The notes below the pieces were generated by a model. That model was not told the origin of the DNA and searched no databases. It worked only from the letters and a program-made list of their open reading frames with translations. Both the position numbers and the translations under genes were made by a program. Shown here piece by piece: positions 29,278 to 32,031 of a stretch of DNA of 36,281 bases (position 1 is its first letter; each line of letters begins with the position of its first letter). Source of the DNA: Bacteroidales bacterium (lineage in GTDB: Bacteria; Bacteroidota; Bacteroidia; Bacteroidales; NBLH01); contig JAFGWC010000085.1 in assembly GCA_016937695.1 (NCBI GenBank), forward strand, positions 1 to 36,281, read 5' to 3'.

Positions 29278-30204
29278 TTATAAACTATTAACAAACTCAA
29301 TTGCATTTAAAGCAGCAATTGTACCATCAGAAACAGCAGTAGTAATTTGTCTGTATTTTTTTGCAATAGAATCGCCTGCAGCAAAAACGCCTTTTATGTT
29401 TGTTTGTAAATTTTCATCAACAACAATTTCGCCTCTGTTATTTAAATCAACTAAACCTTCAAACATCTGTGTTTGAGGAACATAACCAATAAAAATAAAA
29501 ACTCCATCTATATTAAGTTCTGTAATTTCATGAGTTCTTTGATGTTCAATTTTAACTTTTTTCAAGCTTTCATCACCAAAAAATTCAATTATTTCTGATT
29601 CCATAATATAATTAATTTTTGGATTTTTTTTAGCTTCATCAATTGCATGCGGATATGCTTGAAAATTGTCGAATTGGTGAACAATAGTAACTTTTGAAGC
29701 ATATTGAGTTAAAGAAACAGCTTCTTCCAAAGCAGAATTTCCACCACCAACAACTATAATTTCTTTATCCTGAAAAAAATCGCCATCGCAAGTTGCACAA
29801 TAAGAAATTCCTTTTCCGGCAAATTCTTTTTCGCCAGGCACATTTAATGGTCTTGATTTTCCGCCGGTTGTTAAAATTACAGCATCAGAAATATATTTTT
29901 CTAAATCGTTAACTGTAACTTCTTTAATATCAGTATTTAAAACTAATGATGTAATTTTAATATTAGAGCGAATTTCGCAACCAAATTTTTTTGCTTGCTT
30001 TCTCATGTTTTTAGCCAATTGATATCCTGATATGCTCTCAATACCAGGATAATTTGCTATTTCATGAGTTAAAACAACTTGCCCGCCAATGGTTCCAGAA
30101 TCTAAAATTAAAGTTTTAACTTTTGCTCTTGATAAATATATACCGGCAGTTAGTCCTGCAGGACCGCCACCAATAATAATTACATCATATTTATTTTCTT
30201 CCAT
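29278..30204 (-). CDS. trxB: Thioredoxin reductase with altered NADPH motif
   Basis: A 308-residue flavoprotein of the low-molecular-weight thioredoxin reductase family, cytoplasmic, reducing a thioredoxin disulfide. The FAD site IIGGGPAGLTA (about 10-20), redox pair CATCDGD (Cys136, Cys139), dinucleotide motif VGGGNSALEEA (about 152-162) and C-terminal VFAAGDS are intact. The usual HRRDxFR motif, whose arginines hold the 2'-phosphate of NADPH, reads HQFDNFQ at about 176-182: both consecutive arginines and the third one are gone. This suggests NADH, ferredoxin or another donor. The upstream gene on the same strand codes for an unusual thioredoxin, 61 bases away across a hairpin, so the two are likely partners. 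The family call is firm; the donor is inference. Confidence 0.9.
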   Translation of the reverse strand: MEENKYDVIIIGGGPAGLTAGIYLSRAKVKTLILDSGTIGGQVVLTHEIANYPGIESISGYQLAKNMRKQAKKFGCEIRSNIKITSLVLNTDIKEVTVNDLEKYISDAVILTTGGKSRPLNVPGEKEFAGKGISYCATCDGDFFQDKEIIVVGGGNSALEEAVSLTQYASKVTIVHQFDNFQAYPHAIDEAKKNPKINYIMESEIIEFFGDESLKKVKIEHQRTHEITELNIDGVFIFIGYVPQTQMFEGLVDLNNRGEIVVDENLQTNIKGVFAAGDSIAKKYRQITTAVSDGTIAALNAIEFVNSL

Positions 30205-30218
30205 GTTTTTTAATTAAA

Positions 30219-30246
30219 AATGCCACCTAAAAAATAAGATGGCATT
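30219..30246 (-). terminator. Hairpin between the thioredoxin gene and trxB
   Basis: On the minus strand AATGCCATCT (30246-30237) pairs with AGGTGGCATT (30228-30219), one G-T pair, then a T run. It can end most transcripts after the thioredoxin gene and let a fraction into trxB, which starts 14 bases further on. Confidence 0.75.
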
Positions 30247-30265: not shown

Positions 30266-30619
30266 TTATTTACCAAATTCGCTTTTAAGAATATCTGTAA
30301 TTTGATCTCTGTTTTGGATACTACTGGTAGCTTTAACAACTTTACCGTTTTTAAAATAAACTGTAAAAGGTAAACCCATAAATCCTTTACATTCTGAAAG
30401 ATTTCTAATAACTCCGGCATTTGGATTATCAAAAAGCATATCTCTGAATTCAACATGCTTATATTCTCCTTCATCAATAATATCTTCCATTATATCGTAA
30501 ACAGGAACACACATTGGTCCCATTCTACCGCAACTAACCATAACATTTTCGTTATTATTAATTAGTTCATTAAAATCTTCTACTGTAACTAAATGTTTTA
30601 AATCTGTTTGTAATGTCAT
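30266..30619 (-). CDS. Thioredoxin-fold protein with CX6C active site
   Basis: A 117-residue cytoplasmic thioredoxin-like protein. The position of the usual WCGPC motif reads VSCGRMGPMCVPVY: two cysteines (Cys30 and Cys37) six residues apart in place of two, with no preceding Trp. The downstream cis-proline segment GLPFTVYFKNG (Pro84) and the helix and strand order are normal. An additional Cys77 lies in the middle. Such spacing should alter the redox potential and the fit to reductase. It precedes trxB on the same strand, and that reductase also departs from the standard form. The pair is probably a dedicated thiol-redox system. Function by fold; partner by neighbourhood. Confidence 0.82.
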   Translation of the reverse strand: MTLQTDLKHLVTVEDFNELINNNENVMVSCGRMGPMCVPVYDIMEDIIDEGEYKHVEFRDMLFDNPNAGVIRNLSECKGFMGLPFTVYFKNGKVVKATSSIQNRDQITDILKSEFGK

Positions 30620-30665
30620 GTTTTTAATATTTTATTTCAAATCTAATTATTTACATATTTGGATG

Positions 30666-30673
30666 CAAATTTA
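30666..30673 (-). promoter_or_regulatory. Possible -7 box (TAAATTTG) for the thioredoxin gene
   Basis: The plus strand reads CAAATTTA, 47 bases upstream of the ATG at 30619. A second match, CAAATCTA at 30638-30645, lies closer to the start. The rest of 30674-30841 is AT-rich without other signals. Confidence 0.35.
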
Positions 30674-30915: not shown

Positions 30916-32031
30916 TTATTCTACAATAACTTCACCTTTAATTCTCAATATTACTTTATACTTATCAACTCCTTTTTCATCTTTACCAGGAATATTTGTA
31001 ATAATAGTAATGCTTTTATTTTGTCTTCCTTTTTTTCCTCTTGAATTAAAAGTTGCTTTAATTACAGAAGTTTCTCCTGGTTTAATCACTTTTTGGGTTT
31101 CAACTGCAGTACAACCGCAACTAGATTGAGTTTTTCGAATAAAAAGGTCTCTTTTGCCTGTATTTTTAAATTTAAATTCATGAGTTATAACATCGCCATG
31201 TTTTATTTTACCAAAATCAAATTCTTGGTGATCAAAAACCATTGTTGGCGCATTAGCTAATTCACTTTTTGAAAGAGCAGAAAAGTCTTCAAGAATAGAT
31301 GCGCTAACAGAAAGATTATTTCCTACAGGTTGTTCATTATTTACTGTCAGTCTTAATCTATCAGTGGTATTTCCCCAATCATTTTTCTTAGAAGCATCAA
31401 AAGTTATAATTATCTCGCCTTTTTGTTTAGGTTTTAAAGTTGACGGTTTTACCTCAACACTAAGATGGTTAGGAATTCTATCAGCAACAAATCCAACATC
31501 GATAGATTTTTCAGAATCGTTAATAATTTCAACAGACATTGATTTTTTTTCACTATTATACATTCTTGCAAAAGTAATATAGTTAGCTTTTGTTCTTAAA
31601 TCACCAATTTTATATCTGTAAATATCAGCAATAGACTTTTCTTTATTAATTACATCTCCTTTAATAACAAGCTTAATTGGTTCGGCTAAAACATTTGTAT
31701 AAACTAATACATGTTTATTAAAAGCTCCTGGTCTTTCATTCGGGTCAAATTCTGCACTAACAAAACCTTCTTCGCCCGGAACTATTGGCGAACGTGTCCA
31801 TTCCGGCGTTGTACATCCGCAACTTGATTGAACTCTTGTTATAACTACAGGCGATTTTCCGATATTTTTAAATTTAAATTTATAATTTACAGTTCCGCCA
31901 TCTTCTTTAATTCTTCCAAAATCATGTGTTTCTTTTTCAAATTTAATATCAGAAATACTATTTTGAGCAAATAAAGAGTTATTAGCGCCAAATAATAAAC
32001 TTAATGATAAAATAAATATTAAAGTCTTCAT
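30916..32031 (-). CDS. Exported protein with two DUF1573 domains
   Basis: A 371-residue protein with a signal peptide (about 1-23, ending LFAQ). Two DUF1573 domains, Ig-like and related to ASPM-SPD-2-Hydin domains, lie at about 28-125 and 265-371. Each begins with a HDFG or FDFG strand, has FKFKNIGK or FKFKNTGK, and contains the family's SSCGCT motif (Cys71/Cys73 and Cys305/Cys307). The middle part (about 130-260) is probably a further, diverged Ig-like repeat (EIINDSEKSIDVGF, KPKQKGEIIITFD). Such proteins are common in the Bacteroidota envelope and their role is unknown. It is a single-gene unit with a candidate -7 box upstream and a long palindromic terminator downstream. Confidence 0.85.
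   Translation of the reverse strand: MKTLIFILSLSLLFGANNSLFAQNSISDIKFEKETHDFGRIKEDGGTVNYKFKFKNIGKSPVVITRVQSSCGCTTPEWTRSPIVPGEEGFVSAEFDPNERPGAFNKHVLVYTNVLAEPIKLVIKGDVINKEKSIADIYRYKIGDLRTKANYITFARMYNSEKKSMSVEIINDSEKSIDVGFVADRIPNHLSVEVKPSTLKPKQKGEIIITFDASKKNDWGNTTDRLRLTVNNEQPVGNNLSVSASILEDFSALSKSELANAPTMVFDHQEFDFGKIKHGDVITHEFKFKNTGKRDLFIRKTQSSCGCTAVETQKVIKPGETSVIKATFNSRGKKGRQNKSITIITNIPGKDEKGVDKYKVILRIKGEVIVE

Follow-up and report, generated by a model that had tools for sequence, protein, structure and literature searches.

The 36,281-nucleotide stretch of Bacteroidales DNA analysed here (hereafter the window) carries, on its minus strand, a gene for a small thioredoxin-like protein, followed 61 bp downstream by a gene for a thioredoxin reductase-like flavoprotein. 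The reading that we hold with slightly better than even confidence is that these two genes provide a dedicated thiol-redox relay in addition to the housekeeping thioredoxin system, probably fed by NADH, built on a relocated cysteine pair and directed to a target in anaerobic metabolism. In this relay, electrons would pass from a pyridine nucleotide, probably NADH, to the FAD and then to the CATC disulfide of the reductase, and from there to the thioredoxin-fold protein. In the latter, Gly34 takes the place of the exposed nucleophile Cys32 of thioredoxins and Cys37 keeps the buried Cys35 position, and the partner cysteine would now lie where the preceding strand ends, as Cys29, Cys30 or both (in the window, as Cys30). 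Once reduced, the protein would, we infer, serve a particular target of anaerobic metabolism, which may lie in Fe-S or sulfur handling. Thioredoxin chemistry is normally explained by the exposed N-terminal cysteine of the CxxC motif, and a deeply conserved thioredoxin-fold family that has its own reductase yet lacks this residue would mean that the fold can be operated differently; the family in question is common to many bacterial phyla and to methane-oxidising archaea, and has no Pfam or NCBIfam entry.

The thioredoxin-like gene (30266..30619, minus strand) starts with ATG and encodes 117 amino acids with a thioredoxin fold and the signature (C/S/I)C-GRMGPM-C. Its open reading frame reads ...NVMVSCGRMGPMCVPVYDIME..., a segment containing C30 and C37, and further on ...ECKGFMGLPFTVYF..., containing P84. 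The earlier note had described Cys30-GRMGPM-Cys37 in place of CGPC, a normal cis-Pro84 and no tryptophan ahead of the active site, and all of this is borne out: the motif is encoded at 30509..30532 (minus strand); LPFTV with Pro84 (30359..30373, minus strand) aligns to the IPT of canonical thioredoxins at the cis-Pro position, P84 and F85 being invariant among 101 homologues, with the cis geometry itself not visible; and tryptophan is absent from the entire protein. The consensus of the family is C29-C30-GRMGPM-C37, the Ser at position 29 of the window being shared by just one other locus, and GRMGxMC is found in all of the 118 homologous loci, whose sequences are not all distinct. Its conservation in these 118 loci rules out a sequencing error, a frameshift or chance as the cause of the motif. 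A phage or plasmid gene was also rejected, no match having been found in the phage or plasmid collection.

Upstream of the gene, a possible promoter of the form TTTG-N20-TAnnTTTG (30638..30669, minus strand), which we take to be the Bacteroidetes-type consensus, is a pattern match only, one of four such matches in the window. Further upstream on the same strand lies a DUF1573 gene (30916-32031), which carries CGCT motifs and is hit as well by the NCBIfam model for OS_HP2 family (seleno)proteins. As a partner of the thioredoxin-like protein it was dropped, being 296 bp away and having a signal-peptide-like start, with a DUF1573 cluster near the thioredoxin-like gene in six loci only.

The family stays below the cut-off of every Pfam and NCBIfam model: the window protein scores 15.5 bits against TIGR01068 (cut-off 96.8) and has no match to PF00085, and the best of 64 members reaches an E-value of 0.0066. 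In addition, its motif string was found in none of the papers searched. The AlphaFold prediction made with 64 homologues (mean pLDDT 92.6) has the order of strands and helices of a thioredoxin, and structure searches rank thioredoxins first (Z 14.9, rmsd 2.4 over 109 residues; Foldseek E-value 3e-7), the matches listed being ordinary thioredoxins only and other families not being thereby excluded. Profile alignments with hhalign against canonical thioredoxins and with hmmsearch against PDB sequences agree on the register of the helix: relative to E. coli thioredoxin, Cys37 stands at Cys35, Met36 at Pro34, Pro35 at Gly33, Gly34 at Cys32 and Met33 at Trp31. The end of the strand is short by one residue, so that residue 29 falls at Asp26 and Cys30 at Phe27 or Trp28. 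From this register it follows that the classical exposed nucleophile is absent, and that an internal disulfide, if formed, must join Cys37 to Cys29 or Cys30, which would be placed on the neighbouring strand; in the window, this would be a putative Cys30-Cys37 disulfide. A reading in which MGPM replaces CGPC residue by residue, with the helix offset by one, had also been considered, as the helix of the model begins at Pro35. This was rejected, given that it would put Asp42 and Asp46 at buried helix positions and is against both profile alignments.

The reductase gene (29278..30204, minus strand) encodes a 308-amino-acid FAD/CATC enzyme of an altered H[QE]FDxFQA clade, which scores 355.8 bits against TIGR01292 (cut-off 343.45). 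The description of this neighbouring trxB as itself altered proved correct: HRRxxxR is missing, and in the alignment HQFDNFQA (29656..29679) replaces HRRDxFRA, the motif for the 2'-phosphate of NADPH; the redox-active CATC disulfide (29788..29799) and the pyrophosphate-binding GGGNSALEE (29722..29748) are intact. At the thioredoxin-binding site, the alignment of reductases places an Asp at the first Phe of the FF pair (CDGDFF, 29773..29790; all three stretches and this one on the minus strand). This FF is part of the thioredoxin-binding site, and its loss in TR3 has been linked to strict pairing with Trx3 (PMC5627308). The site reads CDG[DE]F[FY] in the linked clade, CDAK in most Trx-TrxB fusions and CDGFF(Y) in canonical enzymes; on the evidence of these aligned sequences, Asp or Glu at the first Phe is specific to the linked reductases.

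In the tree, the altered linked reductases form one clade (support 100/95), whose sister clade consists of Trx-TrxB fusions of 422-446 amino acids from Bacteroidota, the two clades together being supported at 100/99. The fusions share the HQF at the nucleotide site yet carry an ordinary CPPC-type thioredoxin domain, which indicates that the HQF change predates, or is separate from, the pairing with the CX6C protein. Proteins of about 420-450 amino acids with an N-terminal CPPC-type thioredoxin and an HQF TrxB (loci L164, L165, L166, L194-L197, L199, L200, L205 and L228) were found in Bacteroidota and a few other groups, and several of them adjoin a protein resembling a radical SAM enzyme.

The two genes are genetically linked. 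Over the 118 loci (counts leaving out the window's second copy, L142), an altered reductase adjoins the thioredoxin-like gene in 77, an HRR-type TrxB in seven, a degenerate one in a single locus and none in 17, the contig being too short in the remaining 16. Among 345 Bacteroidota genomes, the 17 that have the thioredoxin-like gene are the same 17 that have the reductase at more than 400 bits, and the two genes are adjacent in all of them, one of the reductase copies being cut by a contig end; the chance of two identical 17-genome sets would be about 10^-28 if the genomes were independent, which they are not. In the same line, among 60 close relatives the reductase never occurs without the thioredoxin-like gene (18 of 18), and three of the 21 genomes with the latter lack a full-length reductase match, with a contig edge in one, a broken frame in another and no reductase in the third. 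In the seven HRR-type loci, from archaea, Planctomycetota, Fibrobacterota and Spirochaetota, the TrxB lies immediately upstream, in reversed gene order, and six of these seven reductases group with ordinary TrxBs in the tree. As to the 17 loci without an adjacent reductase, most of the genomes concerned have only ordinary HRR-type TrxBs, which counts against the favoured relay. Linkage to TrxBs of different clades in two orders, the altered ones downstream and the HRR-type ones upstream, argues that the thioredoxin-like protein needs a TrxB-type reductant.

The earlier note had proposed a co-evolved pair, arising from a joint departure of both partners and distinct from the housekeeping system, with homologues expected beside HRRxxxR-lacking reductases. 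This check, once run, gave a divided answer, since 77 of the 118 loci agree with the expectation, whereas seven lie beside an HRR-type enzyme and 17 have no reductase. Accordingly, the genetic linkage of the pair stands, but its joint departure is borne out only in part, as the same motif occurs beside HRR-type, degenerate or no reductase and as HQF is shared with the CPPC fusions. That the pair is distinct from the housekeeping system is upheld: the genome of the window also encodes a thioredoxin with WCGPC and another TrxB, which has VRKGYLRAS, and the pair is therefore an additional system.

Between trx and trxB, the 61-base intergenic region holds a terminator-like hairpin with a T run (30216..30246, minus strand; fold -14.3 kcal/mol), which may lower trxB expression relative to trx. 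Similar hairpins, with differing stem letters, lie between both genes in L014, L015 and L016, hence in four of four congeners including the window. The degenerate case is found in an Auribacterota genome (L092:5354-6259), where a TrxB-like protein that has CVEC, but in which no nucleotide motif can be recognised, follows the thioredoxin-like gene, between genes for a CoA-binding protein and a small DnaJ-domain protein.

Of 60 close relatives, 21 have a homologue of the thioredoxin-like protein; the 345 Bacteroidota genomes gave 17 carriers, and a species-level genome collection gave 103 loci (80 kept). The family is sharply bounded, the 345 Bacteroidota genomes giving either about 191-206 bits or no match at the limit used. 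Going by the titles of the records, its members come from about 19 phyla of bacteria and archaea, including Bacteroidota, Ignavibacteriota, Chlorobiota, Calditrichota, Spirochaetota, Myxococcota, Actinomycetota, Planctomycetota, Chloroflexota, Bacillota, Fibrobacterota, Omnitrophota and Elusimicrobiota among bacteria, and ANME-1/Methanophagales, Methanosarcinales and Thermoplasmatota among archaea; since nearly all hosts are metagenome assemblies, single odd placements could be binning errors. Phyla are intermingled in the tree of the family, where for instance a Spirochaetales member falls among Bacteroidales, and this hints at transfer from one lineage to another. One Spirochaetales genome (L065:4332-5345) has the protein joined, in a single open frame, to an Ala_racemase_N (YggS-like) domain ahead of it; the gene immediately before this frame encodes a ferredoxin and a thiamine-binding-type domain.

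In loci without the reductase, the neighbours include an iron-transfer NTPase of the NUBPL/Mrp type, a MinD protein containing a ferredoxin, a NifX-type protein, and a DsrE or an ODP (flavodiiron-like) protein, and in two loci the gene adjoins what was read by eye as a probable pyruvate:ferredoxin oxidoreductase. These scattered neighbours fit Fe-S or sulfur metabolism. Those from the NTPase to DsrE also favour an alternative that we regard as unlikely, in which the protein would be no disulfide carrier at all: CC-GRMGPM-C, with its two to three cysteines and two invariant methionines, would serve to bind an Fe-S cluster, a persulfide or a soft metal, and the reductase would do no more than keep its thiols reduced. 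Over the 118 loci, neither GRMG nor Met36-Cys37 varies at all and 116 retain Pro35, so that the two methionines are as invariant as Cys37, and disulfide exchange needs no methionine. On the other hand, the role of Met33 and Met36 may be no more than to give the loop or the target surface its shape, each of the Fe-S neighbours is seen in few loci, and by far the most constant neighbour is a disulfide reductase. A broader view, to which we give a similarly low probability, would see in these proteins a widespread bacterial and archaeal family in which a strand-helix pair, and no longer the helix tip (Cys32-Cys35), supplies the catalytic disulfide, with the two invariant methionines framing it; this Cys/Met site would carry a metal, a cluster or a sulfur atom, and TrxB-type enzymes recruited from different origins would keep it reduced.

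The electron donor is the next point at which readings diverge. In the favoured relay, NADH rather than NADPH is suggested by an intact GGGxxAxE combined with the loss of the arginines for the 2'-phosphate, hence from motif loss only, and D. vulgaris TR3, which keeps GGGxxAxE, has lost HRR, prefers NADH and strictly pairs with a non-canonical thioredoxin, offers a precedent (PMC5627308). The same relay could be fed by ferredoxin or another low-potential carrier, like FFTR and TRi, which we consider rather improbable. The loss of HRRxxxR would be consistent with it, as would the nature of the hosts, which appear to be anaerobes as judged from the host groups, and clostridial FFTRs are indeed ferredoxin-linked (PMC10880999). 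However, FFTRs are without both NAD(P)H motifs (PMC10880999) and TRi has a degenerate one, whereas GGGN[ST]ALEE is intact through the whole altered-reductase clade.

Cys37, on whose conservation the proposed pair had been made to depend, is invariant (118 of 118 loci), and CxxC is absent throughout the family. Positions 29-30 read CC in 106 loci, IC in six, SC in two (the window being one) and CA, CL or CY in four, Cys29 being thus present in 110 and Cys30 in 114 of the 118; Cys77 is kept in only 76 of 101 homologues. Given that neither Cys29 nor Cys30 is invariant, and that adjacent strand residues face opposite sides, one fixed disulfide cannot hold for all members. The fact that no locus lacks both cysteines was set aside as evidence, only about 0.3 such loci being expected among the 118. 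In L022, L026, L028, L029 and L145, mostly one clade, the loss of Cys29 (Ile) accompanies that of Cys77 (Val), which hints weakly that these positions lie close together. That Cys37, as the sole invariant cysteine, would act on its own, in mixed disulfides, in persulfide transfer or in a redox-inert chaperone or adaptor for the reductase, is very doubtful, because the equivalent Cys35 is buried in thioredoxins and ill-suited to direct attack on a target, and because Cys30 and the CC pair persist in the large majority of loci.

Compared with known systems, the favoured relay finds its closest parallel in TR3/Trx3 of D. vulgaris, an anaerobe's second thioredoxin with its own TrxB, in which GGGxxAxE is kept, HRR is lost, thioredoxin-binding residues are altered and pairing is strict (PMC5627308). 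The comparison, made on the reductase signature (PMC5627308), nevertheless separates the two: TR3 has CxQ at G[R/K]G and mainly Pro at the Phe, whereas the window reductase has GKG and Asp (GKGISYCATCDGDFF). With the canonical low-Mr TrxA/TrxB (TR1 group), the pair shares the fold, the cis-Pro, CATC, GGGxxAxE and G[R/K]G, but its thioredoxin-like member lacks CxxC, a Cys32 equivalent and Trp, and its reductase lacks HRRxxxR and has Asp for Phe; the TR1 signature, VxxxHRRDx[F/L]R with Phe at the thioredoxin-binding site (PMC5627308), is replaced by HQFDNFQA and CDGDFF. FFTR and the D. vulgaris TRi are likewise TrxB-type flavoproteins of anaerobes without HRRxxxR, but FFTR has no pyrophosphate motif and TRi has a degenerate one together with TQ/NGK, where the window has an intact GGGNSALEE. 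The glycine-reductase TrxA3/TrxB3 of Clostridia also sets a dedicated thioredoxin with an atypical site beside its own TrxB, but this site is still a CxxC (GCEPC) and the TrxB is of HRR type (PMC10880999). Finally, the Bacteroidota fusions (L164 and others) have a reductase of the sister clade with the same HQF, and differ by their N-terminal, fused CPPC thioredoxin domain. By analogy with TR3/Trx3 and TrxA3/TrxB3, a dedicated thioredoxin system of anaerobes is thus of a known kind. What is new, as far as the motifs tell, is a thioredoxin-like protein that fails CxxC and a reductase whose motifs fit none of the sets that define TR1, TRi, FFTR and TR3, and the small protein and its reductase probably constitute a separate, hitherto unnamed thiol-redox system.
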